A stretch of 27,513 bases of DNA, taken from positions 1 through 27,513 of the IMG/VR virus record IMGVR_UViG_3300020395_000081, one strand, 5' to 3'. The notes under the pieces were generated by a model. That model made no database searches. It was not told where the DNA came from and was given only the letters and a program-made list of their open reading frames with translations. The translations under genes and the position numbers were made by a program. The DNA is from a virus. Below, one piece after another: positions 4,449-20,520 of this stretch (position 1 is its first letter; every line of letters begins with the position of its first letter).

Positions 4449-6845
4449 GTGGCAGCTCTTAATTTTCCTAACAATCCAGCACTGAATGACATATACCATG
4501 CCAATGGATCTTCATGGAGATGGGATGGTAGTAGATGGAGAAGAATTCCAGATCCTGGTGCTCAAGGTGTTTCTGGTCCTCAAGGTGCTCAAGGTGCTCA
4601 AGGACATCAAGGACATCAGGGTGTAATAGGAGTACAAGGAAATCAAGGATATCAAGGAGTTCAAGGTGCCAATGGAAATATAGGTGCTCAAGGTGCTGCT
4701 GGTGCTCAAGGTGCTCAAGGTGCACAAGGTATTCAAGGTGCACAGGGAAGACAGGGTGCACAGGGTGAAGTAGGTGCTCAAGGTGCTGCTGGTGCTCAAG
4801 GTGCTCAAGGTGCTACTGGTGCTCAAGGTGTTCAAGGAGCTCAAGGTGAACAGGGTGCTCAAGGACATCAGGGACATCAAGGTGTTCAAGGTGCTCAAGG
4901 AAGACAGGGTGCTCAAGGTGAACAAGGTGCTACTGGTGCACAAGGAGTTCAGGGAGCTCAAGGTAGACAGGGTGCAGAAGGAAACTTTGGTGGAGTAACT
5001 TTTGATTATACATTTAAAAGTGCTACATCAGATTCTGATCCTGGTAATGGTTGTTTAAGAATTAGTGAAAGTACATTTAGTGGTGCATTGACACTTTATA
5101 TTGACGATGCTGATGATAATGGTACTAATATAGAAACATATTTGAGAACTATTGATGACTCTACATCTACATTAAAGGGGCATTATAGAATATCTAATAA
5201 GTCTAATTCAGATGATTTTGCAATATTTTCTATCACTGGTTCAAGTACAGAAGCAACTGGATATCATAAAATACCTTCTAGTCATATAAGTGGTGTTACA
5301 TCTTTTAGTGATAATGAAGACATAATCATAACTTTTGCTAGAACTGGTGATAAAGGAGATTCTGGTATTGCTGGTGCTCAAGGTGCTCAAGGTGAACAGG
5401 GTGCTCAAGGTGAACAAGGTGCTACTGGTGCTCAAGGTGTTCAAGGTGCAGTAGGTGCACAAGGTGCTACTGGTGCTGCTGGTGCTCAAGGTGCTCAAGG
5501 TGAACAGGGTGCTACTGGTGCTGGTGGAGGAGCTGGTGCTCAAGGTGCTCAAGGTGAACAAGGTGCTACTGGTGCTGCTGGTGCACAGGGTGCTGTTGGT
5601 GCTCAAGGTGCTACTGGTGCTCAAGGTGTTCAAGGTGCTCAAGGTGAACAGGGTGCTCAAGGTGAACAAGGTGCAGCAGGAAGTCAAGGTTCAACTGGTT
5701 TAACAGATGGTCCTTATGGTGCTCTTGCAACTTATACTCATGATGACCAATCAACTATAAGTTGGGATTCTACACATCAGGCAATGAAATTGTTACCTGA
5801 TGGTGATAATAGTATTGGAGCAGCATTTCCTGCTTGGCGTGTTAATTTAGCATCTGGAGAAACTCATCAGGTATCAGTTAAATATAAGGCATCTACAGGA
5901 AGTGGTAGTGGATTTTATGCAAGAATTTATGAATATGATAATGATTTACCTGATGGTAAATTAGCAATATCAAATGAGGCAACAAACTCTCTAGTTCAAG
6001 AAGATTCAAGAAAAAGGCATACTTGGAGAGAAAATCAAGCAATAACTACTACTTGGGACACTACAGAAATTACATATACTCCTCATGCTAGTGCTAAATG
6101 GGCATCCATAGTTGTCCTTAATTGGAGTGGAATGGGTTCTAATGCACTTTATATTAGAGATCCAATTCATCAATTAATCGGTTCTTCTGGTGGAGTAGGT
6201 GCTCAAGGTGCTCAAGGTGAACAGGGTGCTCCAGGTGCTCAGGGTTCTGGTGGTTCTGGTGGTGCTCAAGGTGCTACTGGTGCTCAAGGTGCTCAAGGTG
6301 AACAGGGTGCCCCTGGTTCTGGTGGAGGAGATGGTGCTCAAGGTGCTACTGGTGCTCAAGGTGTTCAAGGTGCTCCTGGTGCACAAGGTGCTGCTGGTGC
6401 TCAAGGTAATCAAGGAAGACAGGGTTCTCAAGGTAGACAAGGTTCTCAAGGTAGACAAGGTGCTCAAGGTAGACAAGGTGCTCAAGGTAGACAAGGTGCA
6501 ACTGGTCCTAGTCATTTAGTAGCACATGGTTATTGGAATAGTAGTTTAGGAAATAATTATAATATTTCAAGTACTAGTGGTAGTTTTGCTAATGACGACC
6601 AAAATGATGCTTATGATGGTGGGGTTCGATTTAATTTGAGTAGTGGAACCGATGAAGCTCCTTACGCTGTTGTTGCAAGTGGAAGACACGCTGGAGATGG
6701 TGGCATTACTAACCTTTCATTACATGCCAGAGAGATACAAACTAGTGGTTTTAGACTTGGTGGTTATAGATATATGGATGGTGGTGATAATTCTAATTAT
6801 TGGACTTACCCAAGTCAAGTTTCCTTTATAGCAATGGATGATTAA
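4449..6845 (+). CDS. Large collagen-like tail fibre protein (GTG start)
   Basis: 798 aa. GTG is chosen as the start because it aligns the N-terminal module of about 32 residues (NFPN.P..ND, then [13 protein letters not shown]) with those of the fibres at 8513 and 11829. Three collagen-like blocks (about residues 37-178, 308-418 and 583-687) alternate with globular segments at about 179-307 and 419-582. The first insert contains a K.GHYRISN segment; the second resembles a carbohydrate-binding-like beta sandwich ([16 protein letters not shown]...), which is only an impression. The C-terminal domain of about 110 residues ends [10 protein letters not shown] and probably forms the tip. Several collagen breaks ([18 protein letters not shown]) are shared with the fibre at 1525. 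X-Pro-Gly occurs three times as GAPG, at block edges. No collar or S74 domain is seen. Confidence 0.88.
4557..4983 (+). repeat. Collagen-like coding repeat, block 1
   Basis: Tandem 9-bp units GGTGCTCAA with variants GGACATCAA/G (Gly-His-Gln), GGTGTTCAA and GGAAGACAG, keeping Gly-X-Y in frame. HQGHQGV and [11 protein letters not shown] units recur within the block. Confidence 0.88.
5371..5690 (+). repeat. Collagen-like coding repeat, block 2
   Basis: Same 9-bp unit family. It includes a glycine-rich break (GAGGGAGAQ, near 5518-5541) encoded almost identically in the fibre gene at 1525 (near 2138-2161). Confidence 0.88.
6196..6510 (+). repeat. Collagen-like coding repeat, block 3
   Basis: Same unit family. 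It ends in a nearly perfect run of five to six GGTAGACAAGGT(G/T)CTCAA units ([12 protein letters not shown]), the most homogeneous array in the window and therefore probably the youngest expansion. Confidence 0.88.
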
Positions 6846-8512: not shown

Positions 8513-11419
8513 ATGGCAATAAATTTTCCCAATAGTCCGTCAGTTAATGATATTCATGTTAGTGGTGCTAATAGATGGCAGTGGAATGGATCATCATGGA
8601 CGAGAATCGGTGGTGTAAATTCTGATTCTGACACTATAAATTCGTCGAACGATAATTCAACAACAACTCTGTATCCAGTTATGGTTTCTGGTACAGGAGA
8701 TCAGACTGCAAAGATATCAACAACTGCGACTAAAAATATATCTTTTGATGCTTCTGAGGGAGATTTAACAGTAGGTGGTAATATATCTGTTGGTGGAACT
8801 GCTACATTTACTGGTAGTATTTCTGTTGGTGGAACAGTAACATACGAAGACGTAAAGAATGTAGATTCACTTGGTATTGTAACTGCTAGAGCAGGTGTCA
8901 TTGTAACTGGTAATCTTGATACTGATACTTTAAATGTATCTGGTGTATCAACAGTCACTGGATTGGGTGCAACTGATATAAGTGTATCTGGTATTGTAAC
9001 TGCTGCTTCAGGACAATTAATATCTGGTGTGGGAATTGAAACTGGTGGAACAGTCATAGGATATGCTGCCACTATGATCCATTTTAGAGGACCAGGTGTT
9101 AGTACAGCGTATTTTAGTCCTACTACTGGTGTTGGTACTGTTTATTTCCAAGGTGGTGGAGGTTCTGCTTCTGTAAGTATTTCAGAGAGTGCACCATCAA
9201 GTCCATCTGCTGGAGACATGTGGTGGGATAGTGATGTTGGTAATTTACAAATTTATTATACAGACGCTAACTCATCACAATGGGTAACAGCAAATAATGC
9301 TGGACCTCAAGGACCACAGGGTGCTCAAGGTGCTGCTGGTGCTCAAGGTGCTCAAGGATATCAAGGTGTTCAAGGTTCTGTTGGTATTGCATCATTAACT
9401 ATATCAACTGGAGCACCAAGTAGTCCTGCTGCTGGAGATATGTGGTGGGATAGTGATGATGGAGATTTGCATTTATATTATAATGATGGAAATAGTTCTC
9501 AATGGATAAACATTAATGCTGGTTCAGCAGGTGCTCAAGGTGTTCAAGGTTCTACTGGTTCTACTGGTGCTGCTGGAGCTCAAGGTGCTGCTGGAGCTCA
9601 AGGTGCTGCTGGAGCTCAAGGTGCTCAAGGTGCTACTGGTGCTCAAGGTGTTCAAGGTGCTTCGGGTATAACAACTGCTATTTCATCAGGTAATTCTGCT
9701 ATTAGATTTGATGGTAGTCATGATGTCAGATTTATTAGTTCTGGTACTACAAGATTTTATATGGATAGTGATCAATTCATTATAGGTGGTGATAGCGATT
9801 GGTCTCATAATGCATTTTATGGCCCAGATAATAATTGGAGTTCTGATCTTTTCATAGTAGGAAGAGTAGGTGGTGCTTCACAAGTAGCATCATTTGCTCA
9901 GTTCCAAAATAATGATCTTCCTTGTGAGATTGCTATTCAGAAATCTAGGAGTAATACTTACGGTAGTGCTCAAACAGCTGTTGCTATTGGTGATACTATA
10001 GGTGGTATTGTATTCAATGGAGCAGCAGGTAATGCGATGAGACAAGCTGGTGCCATTATGGGTGCTGTAGCTTCAACGGGAACTGTATCTGGTTCAAGTC
10101 TTCCATCAGAACTTCAGTTCTGGACAAACTCTAATGGTGCAGTAGTACCAACAAAGAGGGTTACTATCGACTCTTCAGGTAAAGTTGGTATCAATGAGGC
10201 AACTAATATAAATGGTAGACTTCATGTTCAGCACGATGCCCTTGCAGAAAATATTTATTATGCGACAAGATATAATGACCAAGCGAATGATAAACCAATA
10301 TTTGCAGTCACTGAAGCACAGATGAGGGGAATGACTGCTAGTGGTCTTGTGATGGGTAATCATAATAGAGATATTCATATTGGTCCTGGTTTTAATAGCA
10401 GTGGTGTTATAGATACCGCTAATGCTTTAGGACTTCGTATCAAATCAAATGGTTATGTTGGTATTGGAAGTGAGGTTCCAGGTGAAGTATTAGATGTTAA
10501 TGGAGCTATTAGATCACTAGCAAATAATTATACTACAATGGCAGCGACATTTGATGCTAGGTATGATGCAACTCATTTACTATCATTAACTGTTAATCAT
10601 AATAGTAGTACTGCACAAGAAGTTCTTGGAACATGGGCAGATAGTGGTGGTTCTAGTCCAAGGACAGTTATAAATGCGTCGAATGGGTGGAAACTTGGTG
10701 TCGGAATAAATGCTCCTGGATATAAATTACATGTAAGTGAATCTACATCTGCTGTTGCAAGATTTGAAAGAACTGGTGGAGCATGGGCAAAGGTAGATAT
10801 TAAAGCAGGTAGTAGTAGTGGAAATTCATATCTTACATTTAGTGATAGTGATGCATCTGAAGTTGGTGCGATTAATTATGAACATAGTGATAATAGTTTA
10901 AGATTTGAAATTGGTAGTGAAAGAGTTCGCATTACAGATAATGGATTGAGTGGAAATATTGTTGAGAAATGGCTTGATTTTGGACTTACTTACTATGATG
11001 GTAGTAGTTGGGTTGATAATGGTGCAGGGCAACAAAATAGAAATGCTCCTAGTATTAATGCTGATAATATGGTAACTCGTTTTGTTTTTGCTACTTCACC
11101 TTATCATCGTGATTTCCAATACTGTCAATTTTGGTTTGGTGAAGCTGGTAATGTAGGTGGTAATGTATTTGATATTGATTTTACAGTTTATCATAATACT
11201 CCTGCTGGAGGATATTCATCTAATAATAGTACATTCACTAAAGATTTGAACGCATTTTCTAATGGTAAAGTTGATAGACTGCTATTTCATGATGACATGC
11301 CTACAATTGCTGCAAATTCAATGGTTCAGGTAAATATGGACTGGACAGAGAATACAAATGGAGCAACGTGTCATTGTCATGGTATTGTAATTAGAGAATG
11401 GACAGTAGCACATTCATGA
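8513..11419 (+). CDS. Large tail fibre protein with short collagen-like blocks
   Basis: 968 aa. The N-terminal module of about 32 residues (NFPNSPSVNDIH, then WQWNGSSWTRI) is shared with the fibres at 4449 and 11829. Residues about 60-225 are repetitive beta fibre (VGGNISVGGTATF, SGVSTVTGLG). Two copies of a compact module (SSPSAGDMWWDSD / SSPAAGDMWWDSD, ending SSQW) flank the first collagen block. A second collagen block (about residues 340-383) contains a threefold GAAGAQ unit. The long C-terminal part has 'RVTIDSSGKVGI' and 'ERVRITDNG' shaft repeats. The final domain of about 130 residues is rich in aromatics and His (HDMPTIAANSMVQVN, ending EWTVAHS) and is probably the receptor-binding tip. 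No S74 or collar domain is seen. Confidence 0.87.
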   Translation: MAINFPNSPSVNDIHVSGANRWQWNGSSWTRIGGVNSDSDTINSSNDNSTTTLYPVMVSGTGDQTAKISTTATKNISFDASEGDLTVGGNISVGGTATFTGSISVGGTVTYEDVKNVDSLGIVTARAGVIVTGNLDTDTLNVSGVSTVTGLGATDISVSGIVTAASGQLISGVGIETGGTVIGYAATMIHFRGPGVSTAYFSPTTGVGTVYFQGGGGSASVSISESAPSSPSAGDMWWDSDVGNLQIYYTDANSSQWVTANNAGPQGPQGAQGAAGAQGAQGYQGVQGSVGIASLTISTGAPSSPAAGDMWWDSDDGDLHLYYNDGNSSQWININAGSAGAQGVQGSTGSTGAAGAQGAAGAQGAAGAQGAQGATGAQGVQGASGITTAISSGNSAIRFDGSHDVRFISSGTTRFYMDSDQFIIGGDSDWSHNAFYGPDNNWSSDLFIVGRVGGASQVASFAQFQNNDLPCEIAIQKSRSNTYGSAQTAVAIGDTIGGIVFNGAAGNAMRQAGAIMGAVASTGTVSGSSLPSELQFWTNSNGAVVPTKRVTIDSSGKVGINEATNINGRLHVQHDALAENIYYATRYNDQANDKPIFAVTEAQMRGMTASGLVMGNHNRDIHIGPGFNSSGVIDTANALGLRIKSNGYVGIGSEVPGEVLDVNGAIRSLANNYTTMAATFDARYDATHLLSLTVNHNSSTAQEVLGTWADSGGSSPRTVINASNGWKLGVGINAPGYKLHVSESTSAVARFERTGGAWAKVDIKAGSSSGNSYLTFSDSDASEVGAINYEHSDNSLRFEIGSERVRITDNGLSGNIVEKWLDFGLTYYDGSSWVDNGAGQQNRNAPSINADNMVTRFVFATSPYHRDFQYCQFWFGEAGNVGGNVFDIDFTVYHNTPAGGYSSNNSTFTKDLNAFSNGKVDRLLFHDDMPTIAANSMVQVNMDWTENTNGATCHCHGIVIREWTVAHS
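9301..9390 (+). repeat. Short collagen-like coding repeat
   Basis: About 30 residues of Gly-X-Y ([20 protein letters not shown]...) encoded by the 9-bp unit used in the neighbouring fibre genes. Confidence 0.8.
9529..9666 (+). repeat. Collagen-like coding repeat with triplicated 18-bp unit
   Basis: Contains three consecutive near-identical 18-bp units GGAGCTCAAGGTGCTGCT (9572-9625 region) between single GAQ/GVQ units, a sign of local duplication. Confidence 0.82.
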
Positions 11420-11828: not shown

Positions 11829-14543
11829 ATGGCTGCTGTTAATTTTCCAAATAGTCCTAGTGTAAATGATACCCATACATCGAGTGGAAGTACTTGGAAG
11901 TGGGATGGAACAGTTTGGCAAAGATTAGGAGTAGCAGGACCACAAGGTGCTCAGGGAGTTCAGGGTGCTACAGGATCTGGTGGTGCTGCTGGTGCTCAGG
12001 GTGCTCAAGGTAGACAAGGTGCTACTGGTTCTAATGGTGCTGCTGGTGCTCAAGGTGCTCAGGGACATCAAGGAGTTCAGGGTGCTGCTGGTGCTCAAGG
12101 TGCACAAGGAGTTGTTAGTGATGCTATTCAGAATACTAAGGCAGGTACTAATGCAGGTGGTAATTTTTCTGGTAGTAATCCTACAGGAAATACTTTATAT
12201 GGATGGGGTGCAGGACAAGCACTTACGACTGGGGCTGAGAATGTTTATATAGGTCATTTGGCAGGAAAAGCATCAGATGGTCAAAGTCGTAACATTGGTA
12301 TTGGATATAGTGTTTTACAGGCAAATAATGGTGGTGGAAATAATGTAATGATTGGACAGGAGGTAGCTGTTAATGCTACTGATGTTCAGAATTCAATTTG
12401 CATAGGTGATAGAGCTGGGTATTGGGGTATTAGTGATTATGCTGTCGTTATTGGTAAATCTGTAGGTTATAGTAATCCTAATGATCACACTATAGCTATT
12501 GGTGAACAGGCAGGATACTCTAATGCTGGAGAACATTGCATAAGCTTAGGATACCAAGCAGGATATAATAGTGGTGGTAAGTATGGTATTAATATTGGAT
12601 ATAATGCAGGATATTCACAGAGTAGTAACAATAAAGGTAATGTAGCAATAGGATACCATGCACTTAAACATGAAAATGGTAATGAGTATTGTGTTGGAAT
12701 TGGAAATAGTTGTTATCTTCCCATTAAAGGTGAGAATACAGGAGCATCAGATAATCAGTTAGTTATTGGTGTTGGACATACCGCATGGATAGTTGGTACT
12801 AAGAATTATAATGTTGGTTTAGGTGTTACTAATCCATTTGGTCCACTTGAAGTTCAGAGGAATGGTGTTCCAGCAATCATATCAAATTATAATAATTCAA
12901 AACACATTTCAATGAGTGTTGGTGGAAGTGGTGGTGGATGGGCTCAAACTACTGGACAACATTTTGCTTGGTCTCATCAACCATATGCAGATAGAGGAAC
13001 TGATAATAATTTAACAGTAAGACTTCGCATCAACTCAGGTGGACAATTATGTTTAGGAACAACTAGTGGGCCAGGAGAAATAGGTTTATATCTAGGTGAT
13101 GGAACTAATCCAGCAGGACATATCTATGCTAATGGTACACATCATATGTACATATTAGCAAATGCTTATTATAATGGTGGTTGGAAGTATCTAGGAAATG
13201 GTGAGGCAAACTCATTAACCTTGCAGGATGGTAATTTTGTCTTTCTCAATGCATCAACAAATAGTAGTGGTGCAGGACAGGCAGTAACTTGGTCAGAAAA
13301 AGTTCGCATCACATCAGGTGGATCTCTTATTGTTGGAAATCAAACCTCTACAAATTATAAATTATGCGTATCAGAAGCTGCACATACAAGGATTGAAGTT
13401 ATTTCTACAAGTAATAATTCTTCTGGATTGTGGTTAAAGACATTTAGTGGTGGCAGTATTGTTTCTCAATCAACTATCAGAACAAGTAATGATGGTAATT
13501 TAGAACTTTATGCAGGTACAAGTAGTGAAATGAGGAGATTTTGGATTGATGCTACTAATGGTGCGTATCTCCAAGGAACTTCTCATACTAATTTTGAAGT
13601 AAGATCTAATAGTGCATCAACGAAAGCTATTATTCAAACAGTACAGGATAGTGATGTAAGGATAGGAGCATCAACAAATCATCCTCTTGCTTTATATGCT
13701 GGAGGACTTGAAAAAGTTCGCATCACAACGGGTGGTAAGGTTGGTATAGGAATTCAAACTCCTTTCTCCAGACTTCAATCTGGTGGTCATACCTTTAGTG
13801 GTGGGTATGGAATGTATGCCGATAGTAGAGTTGGGATGAGTAATCATGGAAGTCTTACAGGATTAATGCTTGCAAGTACATATAATGATTCAAATCATCC
13901 AGAGTATGGTCTTGTCTTTGTTCAAGGTCCAACTACAAGTTCTTATAATGTATGGAGTATTTCACCTGATGGTCCTGCGAAAGGAAATAGTTTAAATTTA
14001 CATTACGGAGCACAGAATACAAATATCCACCAACCAGCTAATAGAAAATTTGAGTTTACAGGTGGTGGTTATCTTTTAAAACCAAATCATCCATGTTTTA
14101 GGGCAGGATTAAGTGCTAATGCAAGTGTTGCTAATGGAGGAGTTGTTATATTTGGTGATACATCAAGTGATGCAGGACATTTCAATAGGAATGGATGCTA
14201 TAATGCTAGTACAGGTAAGTTTACTGCACCTGTAGCTGGTATCTATGAGTTTACTGTTAGTGCTATAATAATGAATATATCTGATGGAACTGACATGACA
14301 GATTGTTTCTATTTAATGTACCAACCTAGTGGTGGTACTGGTATAAGAATTGCATATTCAAATAGAAGAGGAGAATATATTGCTGATGAAACTGGTAATG
14401 CTGGATATTATAATGATTGGTTGGTAGGGTGTATGGTTAATATGGCTGCAAATTCAACTGTCTGGGTTGAAAATAAAAAAAGAACTCATACTTGGCATGG
14501 TAATTCAGATTACTGTTGGTTAACAGGTAAATTGATAGCATAA
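11829..14543 (+). CDS. Tail fibre with collagen-like neck, YadA-like head repeats and C1q-like tip
   Basis: 904 aa. Residues 1-32 are the shared N-terminal fibre module (NFPNSPSVNDTH, then WKWDGTVWQRL). About residues 37-94 are collagen-like ([23 protein letters not shown]). About residues 139-294 contain nine or more repeats of the type (N/A)-x-x-IG-x-x-A-G-(Y), for example CIGDRAGYW, AIGEQAGYS, SLGYQAGYN and NIGYNAGYS. This is the left-handed beta-roll pattern of trimeric autotransporter (YadA/Hep_Hag) heads. A shaft follows with 'KVRITSGG' and 'KVGIG' repeats. From about residue 756 the sequence matches a C1q-like jelly roll (KFTAPVAGIYEFTVSA, VNMAANSTVWV, ending CWLTGKLIA). Both assigned folds are trimeric, as is collagen, so a homotrimeric fibre with a C1q-like receptor-binding tip is likely. 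Confidence 0.88.
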   Translation: MAAVNFPNSPSVNDTHTSSGSTWKWDGTVWQRLGVAGPQGAQGVQGATGSGGAAGAQGAQGRQGATGSNGAAGAQGAQGHQGVQGAAGAQGAQGVVSDAIQNTKAGTNAGGNFSGSNPTGNTLYGWGAGQALTTGAENVYIGHLAGKASDGQSRNIGIGYSVLQANNGGGNNVMIGQEVAVNATDVQNSICIGDRAGYWGISDYAVVIGKSVGYSNPNDHTIAIGEQAGYSNAGEHCISLGYQAGYNSGGKYGINIGYNAGYSQSSNNKGNVAIGYHALKHENGNEYCVGIGNSCYLPIKGENTGASDNQLVIGVGHTAWIVGTKNYNVGLGVTNPFGPLEVQRNGVPAIISNYNNSKHISMSVGGSGGGWAQTTGQHFAWSHQPYADRGTDNNLTVRLRINSGGQLCLGTTSGPGEIGLYLGDGTNPAGHIYANGTHHMYILANAYYNGGWKYLGNGEANSLTLQDGNFVFLNASTNSSGAGQAVTWSEKVRITSGGSLIVGNQTSTNYKLCVSEAAHTRIEVISTSNNSSGLWLKTFSGGSIVSQSTIRTSNDGNLELYAGTSSEMRRFWIDATNGAYLQGTSHTNFEVRSNSASTKAIIQTVQDSDVRIGASTNHPLALYAGGLEKVRITTGGKVGIGIQTPFSRLQSGGHTFSGGYGMYADSRVGMSNHGSLTGLMLASTYNDSNHPEYGLVFVQGPTTSSYNVWSISPDGPAKGNSLNLHYGAQNTNIHQPANRKFEFTGGGYLLKPNHPCFRAGLSANASVANGGVVIFGDTSSDAGHFNRNGCYNASTGKFTAPVAGIYEFTVSAIIMNISDGTDMTDCFYLMYQPSGGTGIRIAYSNRRGEYIADETGNAGYYNDWLVGCMVNMAANSTVWVENKKRTHTWHGNSDYCWLTGKLIA
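11937..12111 (+). repeat. Collagen-like coding repeat
   Basis: About 58 residues of Gly-X-Y encoded by the GGTGCTCAA-type unit. Two glycine/asparagine breaks (GSGGAAGAQ, GSNGAAGAQ) divide it. Confidence 0.85.
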
Positions 14544-14552
14544 ATCAACTGG

Positions 14553-14581
14553 TTGACAAAATCCTTAGTGTCATATATAAT
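14553..14581 (+). promoter_or_regulatory. Consensus sigma70-type promoter (TTGACA-17-TATAAT)
   Basis: TTGACA at 14553-14558 and TATAAT at 14576-14581 with 17-bp spacing, a perfect match to the bacterial vegetative consensus. Predicted start is near 14588, giving a leader of about 16 nt that carries AGGGA at 14593-14597 before the ATG at 14604. It stands within the late fibre cluster, where the other promoters are late-type. Confidence 0.85.
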
Positions 14582-14603
14582 GTTGGAATTATAGGGATTT
14601 CCT

Positions 14604-14786
14604 ATGTCTGATGAATTTTTGACGAAGTGTGTAATCGATACGTTAAGACGTACCGTTTACATATATTCTAGTGAGGGTGATAAAAAAACTATAGAATGTG
14701 ATACAGTAGATGAATTTATGAATGTTTTGCAATTTGTTCGTACAACAGCAGATGAGGATATCATATCATATGCGGAGCCAGTATGA
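14604..14786 (+). CDS. Small protein of unknown function, first gene of early-promoter microcassette (60 aa)
   Basis: 60 aa, no family recognised. The sequence alternates strands and a helix (CVIDTLRRTVYIYSSEGD, then TVDEFMNVLQFVR) and is acidic overall with Cys at 9 and 32. That pattern fits a small folded alpha/beta protein rather than a leader peptide. It sits directly behind a consensus sigma70 promoter with a Shine-Dalgarno-like AGGGA 6 nt upstream. Its stop overlaps the next start (ATGA). Expression with the early gene class, unlike the adjacent fibre genes, is inferred from the promoter. Confidence 0.72.
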   Translation: MSDEFLTKCVIDTLRRTVYIYSSEGDKKTIECDTVDEFMNVLQFVRTTADEDIISYAEPV

Positions 14787-14914
14787 GTGAAGACGAATTG
14801 AGAAGATTGGAAAATCTTCATGATGATTATCGTCGTCAGGTTAAAGAAGATAAAGAGTCTGATGAAGAAGAATGGATTCGTCTTCAAAGAACTGGGGGTG
14901 GTGCAGAGACATAA
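14783..14914 (+). CDS. Tiny highly charged protein (43 aa), second gene of microcassette
   Basis: ATG overlaps the stop of the 60-aa gene by ATGA. 43 codons end in TAA at 14912-14914. The protein is almost entirely charged helix: acidic and basic residues alternate (EDELRRLENLHDDYRRQ, then EDKESDEEEWIRLQR) before a short Gly-rich tail. This would suit a coiled coil or a binding peptide acting on another protein. No known family is recognised. Translational coupling and the shared promoter support that it is real despite its length. Confidence 0.62.
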   Translation: MSEDELRRLENLHDDYRRQVKEDKESDEEEWIRLQRTGGGAET

Positions 14915-14921
14915 TCTCTGC
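14903..14921 (+). terminator. Perfect 7-bp hairpin over the microcassette stop codon
   Basis: GCAGAGA (14903-14909), loop CATAA, TCTCTGC (14915-14921). The stem spans the stop codon of the 43-aa gene. No T-run follows, so it is not a standard intrinsic terminator. It could attenuate, protect or mark an RNA 3' end. A late-type CTAAATA box begins 5 nt downstream. Confidence 0.45.
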
Positions 14922-14925
14922 CTAA

Positions 14926-14932
14926 CTAAATA
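14926..14932 (+). promoter_or_regulatory. Possible late promoter box CTAAATA
   Basis: CTAAATA lies 39 nt upstream of the start of the giant fibre gene, immediately after the hairpin. It lacks the ACTAAAAATA second half and the usual 24-26 nt spacing; a loosely similar GAACATAGAAATA follows. Confidence 0.4.
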
Positions 14933-14964: not shown

Positions 14965-17900
14965 ATGCCTCTTAATAAGCTAGAGAATTTTATAAAGAAT
15001 ACTGAGGGTCGTATTCTTTATGTTAATCCAAATGATCTTGATTCGACTGATGCTATCGAGAATCAAGGTAATTCACTGACTCAACCTTTCAAAACTATTC
15101 AGAGAGCATTGTTGGAAGCAGCAAGATTTTCTTGGGTGAAAGGTAATGATAATGATTTAATAGAAAGAACAACAATACTTTTATATCCAGGTGATCATAT
15201 AATTGATAACCGTCCAGGATTTGGTATTAAAAAGGTATCAAATGTCGCTAAAGCAATATCACCTGCAGGACAAGAATCTAATGCTAATAGTACATTATCC
15301 CTCAAACCAGATTCTAATTTCGATTTAACGCAAGAAGATAATATTCTCTATAAGTTTAATAGTGTTTATGGTGGTGTTGTTGTACCTAGAGGTACTTCAA
15401 TTGTTGGACTAGATTTAAGAAAAACAAAGGTACGTCCAAAATATGTTCCAAACCCTACTGATGATACATTAGGTTCATCTGCTATCTTTAGAATTACTGG
15501 TGGTTGTTATTTCTGGCAGTTCACCACATTTGATGGTGATGAAGATACTAAAGTATATACTGATAATAAAGATTTTACTGATGCTAACCAAGCAACCCCT
15601 ACATTCTCTCACCATAAATTATCAATTTTTGAATATGCTGATGGTATCAATAATCCTTCAGGATATGATTTAACTGACTTAGAACAATATTATAGTAAGT
15701 TATCTAACGCATTTAACGTTGCATCTGGTAGAGATGTTGATCAAAAATATCCAGCACTTCCTGGTGGATTTGCACCAAAACGTGCTGAGTATGAAATTGT
15801 TGGTGCATTTGCAACTGATCCGATTGGTATTACTAATATTATATCTGGTAATGGTTCAACACCTGGTACAGTTGTTACAGTTACAACTTCTACTGCTCAT
15901 GGATTAAATGCTGGTACTCCTATTAAGATTAGAGGGGTTGGTGTCGCTGATTATAATATTTCTACCGTAGTTACTGATATTAGTGCAAGTAATGATAATG
16001 TATTTACTTATGCATTGCCATTAGTTAGAGCAAACTTACCAGCATCACCTAGTGCTTCTGGTGCTACAGTTACGATTGAAACCGATACTGTATCTGGTGC
16101 TTCACCATATATCTTTAACTGCTCTTTACGTTCTGTATGGGGTTTGAATGGTTTATTCGCTGATGGTGCAAATGCCACAGGTTTCCGTTCAGTTGTTGCT
16201 GCACAGTTTACTGGTGTATCACTACAGAAAGATGATAGAGCATTTGTTAAGTATAATCCTACAAGTCGTACTTACAACGAGATATCAACAACTAAGGTAA
16301 CTGGTTCTGCACTTGCTAGTGGTTCTTCTTCTACTAATGCTGATACAGTTTATCATTTAGATAGTGATGCCATCTATAAGAATGATTGGGAAACTATTCA
16401 TATTAAGGCAACCAATGATGCTGTTATGCAGTTGGTTTCTATCTTTGCGATTGGTTATACCCGTCACTTTGATGTTAGAACGGGTTCTGACTATAGTTTA
16501 ACGAACTCTAACTCCAACTTCGGACAACTATCATTAGTATCTACTGGATTTAAGAAGAAAGCATTTACTAAGGATGATAAGGCATATATTACATCTATTA
16601 TTACTCCAAGAGCAGTTACGACAGCAGAGGAGTCTCTTGATTGGCAAGGACTTGATATAGCAAAAACTGTTCAAGTTGGTTTTTCAAGTCATCTATATCT
16701 TTATGGATATGAGAGTGAAGATATTAAACCACCTTCAGTTCTTCAGGGATATAGAGTTGGTGCAAAAGTTAATGACTTAATTTATATTGATGATAATAAT
16801 ACAGTACCACAAACATTTTCTGCTTCTATTAAGATGGTGGATAAGTTACCAACTAATGGATTATCTACTGTATCTTATGGAAATTACAGTTCATTCAAGA
16901 AATATGCAGTTACTAATGTAGCAAGTAACGTACTTACGATTGGATCTCATGAGTTGGTAACTGGTGAGAAGATTAAGGTTGTTGCTGATGATGGTGATTT
17001 ACCAGAAAATCTTGAGGCACATAAAACATACTATGCGATTGTAGCAACTCCTAATAGTATTAAACTTGCATCATCTAAAACAAATGCAAGTACTAATACA
17101 GCAATTACCATATATTATTCTGGTTCTAAACTAAATGTTTTAAGTAGAGTATCTGATAAGCAATCTGGTGACTTAGGACATCCAATTCAGTGGGATAGTA
17201 CTAATAGTCAGTGGTATATTCATGCTGATGAAGGTAATGCTATCTACTCAACATTTGTTACACAGGGTGTAATAGGATTTGGAACTGCAACTACAAAACC
17301 TTCATACATTAAGAGGGTTGAGGATACGAGAAGTCTTGACGAGAAATTATATAAGTTAAGAGTTGTTATACCAAAAGAATTTGATAATACAAAGAATCCA
17401 GAGGAAGGATTCATCATTCAGGAATCTAGTAATACAGGATTCCGTAGTGATACTGACTCAGCATTAATTAATTCTACTTCAGTAAATGCAATTCTTGATG
17501 GTGAGGATTATGATTACAATAGAAATCCAAGATTTATTAATAATTGCACTGAGGCATCAAGCACTGTTACTGTTGTTTCTGAGCAACCTCATGGTTTAAA
17601 TGCTTGGGATCAGATTATAGTTAAGAATGTAACTAGTAATGGAAATGTCACTGGTGCAGGAAACTCTGGATATAATGGAACATTTAAGGTAAGTGGAATT
17701 ATAGATGATAAAACATTTACATATTCAACAACTGATGTTAATGGTGTTGTTCATATTACAGGTAGTGCTTTAACTAATGATATAACTTCTAGAACAACTT
17801 CTTTACCTAGATTTGAAAGAAATGATTGTCAGGATAATTTCTACATTTATAGAAATGAAGTAATCACACCATACAATAAAGATGTTCAAGATGGTGTTTA

Positions 17901-20520
17901 TCATCTATATGTTTTAAATGCAGGTAATAAAGTTGGTGTAGCATTTACCAATGTGGGATATAGTCAGAATGTAACTGATTTATATCCACAACAGGATAAG
18001 GATAATCCTGATGCCAACCCTAATGCAAGTAAAACTTATGCAAGTCGTTCTCCATTAGGTGAAGTTACAACTGATGATTTAAGAAACAGTCTTACAAGAG
18101 AATCTGTTGATAAGTTACTTACTAACTTCCATATCGGTAATACTATTACTGGTGTAACTACATCATTTGCCACAACAATAAAAGGAACTGCGACTCTTAC
18201 ATTTGCTAGGAATCATAACTTAAGTGGTATTGTTACTGCTACGATTGCTAGTGGTGGTTCTGGATATACAAATGGAACATATCGTAATGTTAAAGTATTT
18301 GATAATAATTCATCCGTTTGGGATGGTGCATTAGCAACAGTTGTTGTAGCAGGTGGAGCAGTTACTAATGTTGATATAACTTCTGGTGGTTCTGGATATG
18401 GTGCAGAGAATTTAGATTTGGATTTATCAACTACTGGAACTGCTGCTGATATTACTACTACTCTTTCTGGCATTTCAACTGTTATTGGTAACACAGTTCA
18501 GGTTACTGGTATCGGTACAACTGCTGGTGGACATTATAGAATTACTTCTGTACCACAAAAGAATCAGGTAGCGATTGGTATTAGTAATTTAGATCCTAGT
18601 ATTTCTGTAGGGCAATATGTAATTAATGTTGGGCATGAGATTAAGACACGTAGTACAACTTTCTGGGGTACTCATCAAACAGTTAATACAAGAACTGCTC
18701 ATGGACTATCTGCAGGAAATAAAGTTAGTCTTATAGATGACAATAATCGTAATAAAGGTGATTATATAATTGGTTCTGCTGGACTTGGAACAGATACATT
18801 TAGAATTTATCCTGATTCAGTAGTATCTTCTAGTTATATCTTGAAGCATGGATTATCCGATAATGATAAATCATCTGATGATGAAGGTGAGAATCTAGGT
18901 GCAAGAGGTTTCTACTTCTATGGTAATGAGAGATATACTCTAGTTACTGCTCTTACAACTGCATCATCTAACGTTAAAGTACAACTTCATGGTGTTGATG
19001 GTTCAACTGTATCGAGATTTGAATTAGGTTCATACATCCAGGTTGATGATGAGATTATGAGAGTCATATCTAATAAATTATCTGGTTCTTATGATGATGA
19101 GATTTGGGTTATTCGTGGTTCATTGGGTACATTACAACAAGCACATGCTGCTGGTTCATTAATCAAGAAGATTACACCAAGACCAATTGAATTCCGTCGT
19201 CCATCTATCATTCGTGCTTCTGGACATACATTTGAATATATTGGTTATGGTCCAGGTAACTATTCAACTGGTTTACCACAGGTTCAGGTTAAGACATTAA
19301 CTGAGGATGAGGATTACTTAGCACAGGCACAAGAAAGAGATTGTGGTACTGTTGTTTATACTGGTATGAATAGTAAGGGTGACTTTATTATTGGTAATAA
19401 GAAAATCAATTCTGCTACTGGTAAAGAGACTACATTTGATATTCCAGTTCCAACTGTAACAGGACAAGATCCTGCTAGATTATCTGTTGTCTTTGATGAA
19501 GTTGTTATTAAAGAGAGACTACTGGTTGAAGGTGGTAACTCTAATACAATTCTATCTGAGTTTGATGGTCCAGTCAATTTCAGTCAAAATGTTAAGATAA
19601 ATGGTGATCTCACTCTTAAGGGTAGACTGAAACAGAGTAGTGTACTTATCATCACTAACCTTACACAATCTAATGATATAGATGAAGGTGCATTACAGGT
19701 TTATGGTGGTGTTGGTATTAAGAAGAATCTTAATGTTGGTGGAACACTAACTGGTACTGGTGCTACATTCACTGGTAATGTAAAAGGTGTTAATGGTGAA
19801 TTTAGTGGTGCTGTAACAGGAACAACTGCTACATTCAGTGGTGCATTATCAGCAACCACAGGTGCATTCAGTAGTAATGTTACCGTTGGTGGAACATTAG
19901 ATGTTACTGGTGATATGACATCTACTGGTGGTATATTTGGAAACATTCGAGTTGGTGTTACTGGTGATAATGAAATTGATACAACATCTGGAAATTTAAC
20001 TATAGATTCTACTGGTGGAACAACAACTGTTGATGATACATTAGTTGTTAGTGGAAATCTAGATGTCAACGGTACTGGAACACATACCCTTGCTGGACCT
20101 CTTACTGTTTCTGGTAATATAACTGGAAATAGTGGTGTCATTAACATGACTGGTAGTGGAACCAACCAACTTGGTGGACCACTTGAAGTTAGTGGAGAAA
20201 TTAAAGCACTTGGTGCTGATATTATTGCCTTTGCATCTTCTGACGAGAATCTAAAGGATAATATTACTATTATACCTAATGCTCTTGATAAGGTTAAAGC
20301 AATTTCAGGTAATACATTTACTTGGAAAGATACTAGCACAGTTGCCTTACCTGGTATGGATGATACTGGTGTTATTGCACAGCAAGTAGAGGCACTTGGA
20401 TTACCTGGAATAACAACAACTAGACCTGATGGAACAAAAGCAGTTCGTTATGAGAGATTGGTTCCTGTATTAATAGAAGCAATCAAAGAACTATCTGCAA
20501 AAGTAGATGCTCTGTCCTAA
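14965..20520 (+). CDS. Giant tail fibre/tailspike-like structural protein with C-terminal S74 intramolecular chaperone
   Basis: 1851 aa. Residues about 16-60 (ILYVNPNDLDSTDAIENQG, then PFKTIQRALLEA) have the look of the entry to a right-handed beta-helix (G..PFKTIQxA), as in tailspikes. Four copies of a small module with core HGLxxGxxI lie at His312, His662, His876 and His1246 (second copy HEL). Two GGSGY motifs flank about residues 1095-1145. After about residue 1585 comes a shaft of VGGTLTGTGATF-type repeats. The C-terminal 93 residues match the peptidase S74 chaperone of endosialidase-type fibres: Ser1759-Asp-Glu-Asn-Leu-Lys1764 gives the Ser-Lys spacing of the autocleavage site, followed by GVIAQQVEALGLP and YERLVPVLIEAIKEL. 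The chaperone should drive trimerisation and then cut itself off before Ser1759. The start ATG follows AT-rich DNA without a Shine-Dalgarno. Confidence 0.9.
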   Translation: MPLNKLENFIKNTEGRILYVNPNDLDSTDAIENQGNSLTQPFKTIQRALLEAARFSWVKGNDNDLIERTTILLYPGDHIIDNRPGFGIKKVSNVAKAISPAGQESNANSTLSLKPDSNFDLTQEDNILYKFNSVYGGVVVPRGTSIVGLDLRKTKVRPKYVPNPTDDTLGSSAIFRITGGCYFWQFTTFDGDEDTKVYTDNKDFTDANQATPTFSHHKLSIFEYADGINNPSGYDLTDLEQYYSKLSNAFNVASGRDVDQKYPALPGGFAPKRAEYEIVGAFATDPIGITNIISGNGSTPGTVVTVTTSTAHGLNAGTPIKIRGVGVADYNISTVVTDISASNDNVFTYALPLVRANLPASPSASGATVTIETDTVSGASPYIFNCSLRSVWGLNGLFADGANATGFRSVVAAQFTGVSLQKDDRAFVKYNPTSRTYNEISTTKVTGSALASGSSSTNADTVYHLDSDAIYKNDWETIHIKATNDAVMQLVSIFAIGYTRHFDVRTGSDYSLTNSNSNFGQLSLVSTGFKKKAFTKDDKAYITSIITPRAVTTAEESLDWQGLDIAKTVQVGFSSHLYLYGYESEDIKPPSVLQGYRVGAKVNDLIYIDDNNTVPQTFSASIKMVDKLPTNGLSTVSYGNYSSFKKYAVTNVASNVLTIGSHELVTGEKIKVVADDGDLPENLEAHKTYYAIVATPNSIKLASSKTNASTNTAITIYYSGSKLNVLSRVSDKQSGDLGHPIQWDSTNSQWYIHADEGNAIYSTFVTQGVIGFGTATTKPSYIKRVEDTRSLDEKLYKLRVVIPKEFDNTKNPEEGFIIQESSNTGFRSDTDSALINSTSVNAILDGEDYDYNRNPRFINNCTEASSTVTVVSEQPHGLNAWDQIIVKNVTSNGNVTGAGNSGYNGTFKVSGIIDDKTFTYSTTDVNGVVHITGSALTNDITSRTTSLPRFERNDCQDNFYIYRNEVITPYNKDVQDGVYHLYVLNAGNKVGVAFTNVGYSQNVTDLYPQQDKDNPDANPNASKTYASRSPLGEVTTDDLRNSLTRESVDKLLTNFHIGNTITGVTTSFATTIKGTATLTFARNHNLSGIVTATIASGGSGYTNGTYRNVKVFDNNSSVWDGALATVVVAGGAVTNVDITSGGSGYGAENLDLDLSTTGTAADITTTLSGISTVIGNTVQVTGIGTTAGGHYRITSVPQKNQVAIGISNLDPSISVGQYVINVGHEIKTRSTTFWGTHQTVNTRTAHGLSAGNKVSLIDDNNRNKGDYIIGSAGLGTDTFRIYPDSVVSSSYILKHGLSDNDKSSDDEGENLGARGFYFYGNERYTLVTALTTASSNVKVQLHGVDGSTVSRFELGSYIQVDDEIMRVISNKLSGSYDDEIWVIRGSLGTLQQAHAAGSLIKKITPRPIEFRRPSIIRASGHTFEYIGYGPGNYSTGLPQVQVKTLTEDEDYLAQAQERDCGTVVYTGMNSKGDFIIGNKKINSATGKETTFDIPVPTVTGQDPARLSVVFDEVVIKERLLVEGGNSNTILSEFDGPVNFSQNVKINGDLTLKGRLKQSSVLIITNLTQSNDIDEGALQVYGGVGIKKNLNVGGTLTGTGATFTGNVKGVNGEFSGAVTGTTATFSGALSATTGAFSSNVTVGGTLDVTGDMTSTGGIFGNIRVGVTGDNEIDTTSGNLTIDSTGGTTTVDDTLVVSGNLDVNGTGTHTLAGPLTVSGNITGNSGVINMTGSGTNQLGGPLEVSGEIKALGADIIAFASSDENLKDNITIIPNALDKVKAISGNTFTWKDTSTVALPGMDDTGVIAQQVEALGLPGITTTRPDGTKAVRYERLVPVLIEAIKELSAKVDALS

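Follow-up and report, generated by a model that had tools for sequence, protein, structure and literature searches.

The analysed DNA, a 27.5-kb stretch (27,513 nucleotides) referred to here as the window, is of T4-like cyanophage origin, with a giant fibre gene that shares 75.5% DNA identity with its counterpart in Prochlorococcus phage P-SSM2. Between an upstream fibre-like gene and this giant gene lies a compact cassette of two small genes, encoding proteins of 60 and 43 amino acids (aa), together with a sigma-70 promoter, a hairpin and a T4-type late promoter box (Table 1). Both reading frames were found where the preliminary description had placed them, joined by an ATGA overlap. Long homology between the window and its closest relative, contig L009, begins only at position 14529, at the end of the upstream fibre-like gene, and cassette and fibre gene are therefore one module. 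No tRNA genes were found in the window, and an Rfam scan returned nothing above threshold. Short repeats at 1992–2398, 5381–6380, 9521–9667 and 11945–12042 are common to several structural ORFs and L009, and their sequences are consistent with collagen-like Gly-x-x repeats.

Table 1. Features of the two-gene cassette and its flanks, in window coordinates.
Feature	Position	Strand	Basis
Upstream fibre-like gene	11829–14543	+	Context
Sigma-70 promoter, TTGACA-17-TATAAT	14553–14581	+	Consensus match; conserved in relatives
60-aa gene, DUF7294 (PF23966) / PHROG_662, predicted β-β-β-α-β fold	14604–14786	+	Pfam, PHROG, AF2, tblastn
43-aa gene, ATGA overlap with 60-aa gene; predicted helix and flexible C-terminal tail	14783–14914	+	ORF, L009 comparison, AF2
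Codons of C-terminal tail EEEWIRLQRTGGGAET of 43-aa gene	14864–14911	+	Recurrence in ~40 IMG/VR contigs; intermediates to Phd-like tail
Perfect 7-bp hairpin over stop codon of 43-aa gene	14903–14921	+	Terminator-like position, without T-run
CTAAATA, T4-type late promoter box of fibre gene	14926–14932	+	Conserved spacing to fibre ATG
Giant fibre gene, late, downstream context	14965–20520	+	75.5% DNA identity to P-SSM2 fibre gene

The promoter comprises TTGACA at 14553–14558 and TATAAT at 14576–14581, separated by a 17-nucleotide spacer. It is the sole 12/12 sigma-70 match in the scanned region and, as the preliminary description had it, a perfect one; no other exact match occurs in the window, where shuffling predicts 0.17. 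The element is conserved: upstream of the DUF7294 gene, the family of the 60-aa protein, 120 of 131 distinct regions contain a sigma-70 match scoring 10/12 or better (53 perfect), compared with 2.8% of dinucleotide-shuffled controls. Judged from this promoter, the cassette would be expressed early or in the middle period. We read “early” in this broader sense because P-HM2 expressed its auxiliary metabolic genes in the middle cluster (PMC5082946), and genes of this class are also carried in the DUF7294 island of other phages. In many relatives (e.g. L003, L231 and L239) the −10 box is followed by a leader motif, GGTAATCAA, which appears at DUF7294 promoters and at the PHROG_552 promoter of a second genomic slot described below. 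Of 12 complete cyanophage genomes, 6 hold exact matches to promoter plus motif, eight in all, and a reversed control gave 0. The window (compare 14582–14603) is without this motif.

Downstream of the cassette, the predicted late-type box was also recovered. CTAAATA occurs just twice in the window, against 8.9 copies expected, and [CA]TAAATA lies ~35–44 nucleotides before the fibre ATG in all 58 distinct starts, a T4-type late promoter at a near-fixed distance from its late gene. With the sigma-70 promoter kept in 120/131 relatives and the late box in 58/58, two promoter classes meet at the junction of cassette and fibre gene. This supports the earlier view of a self-contained unit whose promoter class is unlike that of its late neighbours. 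T4-type late and sigma-70 early promoters are both known from cyanomyoviruses (PMC3037559) and occupy their expected places here; the window departs from that usual layout in having an early-type unit inside the late fibre cluster, and is otherwise unremarkable.

The 7-bp hairpin over the final stop, GCAGAGA-CATAA-TCTCTGC, is perfect as described (folding z = −2.1). Such hairpins are not rare, with 25 in the window and 11–22 in each of five random sequences, and this one, having no T-run, lacks the canonical form of an intrinsic terminator. At the same spot, just before the late box, a canonical hairpin-plus-T terminator stands in L024, L048, L075, L077 and L087. We rejected the hairpin as a universally conserved element, its median z being −0.05 over 81 relatives, with only 12 below −2.

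The 60-aa protein matches Pfam DUF7294 (PF23966) over residues 1–60 (E 3.9e-21; 75.3 bits, against a curated cutoff of 27) and PHROG_662 (E 1.7e-17), and its gene has the family's site upstream of the giant fibre gene. By sequence it is thus a member of an already known family, the “T4-GC 29” of cyanomyoviruses, which also precedes the fibre gene in P-SSM2 (T4-GC 29 then 30), S-SM2 and P-HM1. By tblastn (E ≤ 1) the protein has hits in 44 or more phage records, which without exception are cyanophages or marine single-cell viruses; the P-SSM2 copy was picked up only with a divergent query. More than 570 IMG/VR stretches encode the family. In deposited S-8S53, S-8S55 and S-8S56 (H13–H15) and S-BM3 (L092:4001–4180), the gene was left unannotated.

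In the annotated cases that we read, DUF7294 follows genes of the tail/baseplate region and precedes the giant fibre gene. The next gene is the fibre gene itself in P-TIM68 and P-SSM2; in P-HM1 an acyl carrier protein gene and cpeT intervene, in S-SCSM1 cpeT, in S-CAM9 tRNAs and a 2OG oxygenase gene, in other phages small genes without assigned role, and in many phages a gene for a Phd/YefM-like antitoxin. Because the genes that come after it differ between phages, DUF7294 is the constant leader of an island with changing contents. Neither its conserved sigma-70 promoter nor its position as leader was described in the sources that we searched. An AF2 model of the 60-aa protein (pLDDT 87.7) has a β-β-β-α-β order, and neither Foldseek nor VIA searches gave a confident structural relative. 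Candidate relations to the FtsH periplasmic domain (best Foldseek E only 0.012) and to a large-subunit ribosomal protein (best VIA Z 6.1) were rejected, as both fall in the range of common arrangements.

The 43-aa gene encodes an identical protein (100%) in L009, with six synonymous and no nonsynonymous changes, whereas random change would be synonymous in ~19% of cases; it is therefore a real gene, and one readily overlooked by annotation, as had been suspected. In the same close pair, 4 of 20 changes in the DUF7294 gene are nonsynonymous, against 0 of 6 here. That the whole cassette exists and that its genes are coding we consider close to certain. By AF2, residues 3–37 of the 43-aa protein form a helix with a flexible C-terminal end; the helix is charged and ends in the tail EEEWIRLQRTGGGAET. 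No match to Pfam or PHROG_375 was obtained, and the predicted single helix takes the place of a Phd/YefM (PF02604) N-terminal fold.

The tail belongs to a wider family. We searched IMG/VR for DNA encoding the final residues TGGGAET followed by a stop codon, and found 32 stretches, ~30 of which end in [DE]xEW[IVL]RxQ[RT]TGGGAET. The E, W and Q outside the search pattern are invariant while the codons differ, so it is the protein that is conserved. With a second pattern, drawn from the upstream half of the tail, we retrieved largely the same contigs, plus tails ending AEN and CES. In all, the EEEWIRLQRTGGGAET-type tail recurs in ~40 contigs of uncultured marine phages, on several N-terminal parts and in at least two genomic slots. 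The tail-bearing N-terminal parts include the types (L)ERLHDDYR, SFDGCYNYKKLKEEGLV and LLREVVGDDK, each found in more than one slot. Slot A is the position after DUF7294 and slot B that before the PHROG_552 gene (MTLTSKFKKDL...), so the family also occurs away from DUF7294. Many slot-B tail genes among L104–L133 end in a final codon and stop (ACTTGACTT) that also supply the −35 box for the sigma-70 promoter that follows. A third slot is what we take to be the cobS/gp45 neighbourhood. There, L115, L124 and L134 carry a TGGGAET tail on an N-terminal part of CYNY type (below), upstream of a ~358-aa gene; two genes on is a protein that presumably resembles the gp45 clamp.

The strict tail pattern matched at most once per record in 16 complete or long records, and a looser one, applied to 21 records, matched once in each of six. 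The AG-345-O18 virus, known from a single particle, has a tail gene in slot B (L099, MH319757), and in slot A its DUF7294 gene is followed directly by the fibre gene (L006, MH319758), as would be expected if each genome has one tail gene. When three family members were compared with named phage records by tblastn, AG-345-O18 and AG-341-P01 were the only hits beyond chance; matches to MW202545 and an Acinetobacter phage were rejected as chance. A pattern for the tail is absent from a GTDB set of 84,980 bacterial and archaeal genomes, a result limited by the pattern used. The TGGGAET contig AG-341-P01 (L100) stems from the AG-341 plate of the Prochlorococcus sort gate (PMC6122165), and Prochlorococcus is thus the probable host of this one tail carrier.

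A classical Phd/YefM antitoxin contacts DNA through its N-terminal fold and uses its C-terminal stretch to bind and neutralise the toxin. The slot-A Phd/YefM-like proteins of many phages belong to PHROG_375 and end in ADD[DE]LIRIHTELNNEAS or similar. The S-SKS1 protein falls just below the PF02604 cutoff; full-length antitoxins of S-WAM2 and S-MbCM7 reach it, with tails EEEWYNMFNNHDDAS and DADWENMMTTHDDAS, respectively. A search with a Phd-tail pattern returned 46 stretches, and wherever the context was readable, Phd-like proteins with ADDELIRIYTDHNEAS-like tails sat in slot A or slot B. The slot-B gene was confirmed in cultured SynMITS9220M01, S-SM2 and Bellamy. These are the slots of the 43-aa family, and the two kinds of tail are bridged by intermediates, obtained by searching with the LHDDYR family. 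In slot A, this one N-terminal part carries the graded series DDEIIRIHTTHDDAG, DDEIVRIHTEENNDGC, EDEFIILHTRGGSAES and EEEWIRLQRTGGGAET, with the bridging tail EDEFIILHTRGGSAES found in L298. A second N-terminal part, F[DE]xCYNYxKL (CYNY), likewise occurs with both tail types, L287 ending in DDEIVRIHTTHNDGP. The distance from tail to stop codon is nearly equal in both families.

Scored on a Phd-tail profile, TGGGAET-type tails have a median of 6.7, against a 99.9th percentile of 4.6 for 23,603 background C-termini; a simple pattern served as the Phd test in this survey, which makes its head classes and slot counts approximate. The window's own tail scores more weakly, in the top 0.3% of C-termini, and direct hhalign comparison of the two families is weak (probability 2.2), though in register; the antitoxin link therefore rests on the intermediates and the shared slots. 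From these and the profile enrichment, we consider it likely that the tails of the 43-aa family and the Phd-like antitoxins are homologous, and that the 43-aa protein carries the C-terminal tail of the cyanophage Phd-like subgroup. A Phd-like alignment scan of the GTDB genomes, limited by its pattern, gave 105 matches and no confirmed relative; plasmids likewise yielded no confirmed relative of the phage Phd-like proteins and no source of the tail.

The Phd-like proteins are themselves orphans, with no toxin gene adjacent, and no cognate toxin gene lies beside the 43-aa gene, whose neighbours are DUF7294 and the fibre gene. Orphan Phd-like antitoxins of cyanophages are already known and annotated (PHROG_375; “Phd-like antitoxin” in RefSeq for S-SM2, Bellamy and S-WAM2). 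YefM of cyanophage S-CREM1 is among them, and a counter-defence role has been proposed for such a phage-encoded antitoxin (PMC9964418). The 43-aa protein shares with this group the tail, through intermediates, the two slots and the toxin-less setting; it differs in having a charged helix instead of the Phd/YefM fold, and a diverged WIRLQRTGGGAET-type tail. As far as the sources searched show, headless tail-bearing relatives, modular N-terminal parts and slot equivalence with antitoxins are undescribed.

We propose that the unit is a mini-operon of the early or middle class, transcribed through host sigma-70 and set within the late tail-fibre region, and that the 43-aa protein is a headless antitoxin, so called because the Phd/YefM fold is missing while the toxin-binding type of tail is kept; we put the probability of this reading at about 0.5. 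Host sigma-70 would drive DUF7294 and the 43-aa gene together. Through its tail, the 43-aa protein may then bind whichever host protein the full Phd-like proteins of other phages bind, and binding would block that protein without DNA binding or autoregulation. Transcription of the downstream fibre gene would start later, at the T4-type late box of that gene. The relationship between the tails is well supported, and a neutralising role is more tentative, falling somewhat short of even odds. The partner may be something other than a known toxin, given that no type II toxin–antitoxin pairs were found in Prochlorococcus (PMC5498466), whereas AG-341-P01 was recovered from a plate sorted for Prochlorococcus. 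Phages do carry antitoxin mimics that act against toxin–antitoxin defence, such as T4 Dmd, and the likeness of the 43-aa protein to these lies in its proposed role, that of a small phage protein neutralising a host toxin. The preliminary description had suggested a host-takeover or anti-host function; the antitoxin-like tail turns this into a specific candidate role for the 43-aa protein, and DUF7294 proves to be a known family.

The tail could instead be a portable tag, such as a degron or a ribosome, RNA polymerase or protease-adaptor motif, that leads several small unrelated phage proteins, the Phd-like ones among them, to one partner in host or phage. Its constancy while the N-terminal parts change would suit a tag, the ceiling of one match per genome among the 16 complete or long records agrees with there being one dedicated partner, and no type II toxins have been reported in Prochlorococcus (PMC5498466). 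In Phd-fold proteins, however, the tail occupies the toxin-binding position of an antitoxin, and its slots are common to bona fide Phd-like genes; we regard a tag as unlikely, if worth keeping in mind. A generic takeover cassette, with DUF7294 as the active protein and the 43-aa gene as an accessory or translational passenger, seems a little less likely again. DUF7294 is indeed fixed in the island while the second gene varies or is absent, but it is the 43-aa gene that is free of nonsynonymous changes in the one close pair compared, and in slot B its family is present with no DUF7294 beside it. It is decidedly improbable that the 43-aa family has no kinship with the Phd-like proteins, with convergent tails brought together by common insertion hot-spots: the low hhalign probability, the differing N-terminal folds and the tRNAs, cpeT and other genes received by slot A would agree with this, but the graded intermediates on one N-terminal part in one slot, the near-equal spacing to the stop codon and the enrichment over background C-termini argue against it. 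Chance ORFs beside a chance promoter in the fibre cluster, to which the commonness of 7-bp hairpins might lend itself, are already refuted, since the promoter, both proteins and the late box are conserved across the relatives to which the preliminary description had pointed as a synteny check.

Under the headless-antitoxin reading, an overlooked 43-residue ORF becomes a member of a family with a recognisable short tail, tied to the orphan antitoxins of cyanophages. We speculate that this is a portable target-binding tail, held in common with Phd-like antitoxins, that marine T4-like phages shuffle between several slots and between N-terminal parts, of which three or more are unrelated; each genome would apparently carry a single copy, and the phages concerned would include those of hosts without known toxin–antitoxin pairs. 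If so, and we hold this no more than tentatively, the tail marks a host protein that these phages must bind. The 16-residue tail peptide could serve as bait for fishing out that target, and a toxin-like or defence protein in Prochlorococcus would expose a defence so far undescribed. The DUF7294 locus itself offers variable cargo a conserved slot with an early-type promoter inside the late region, in cyanophages of the sea that carry hundreds of tiny genes without known use.
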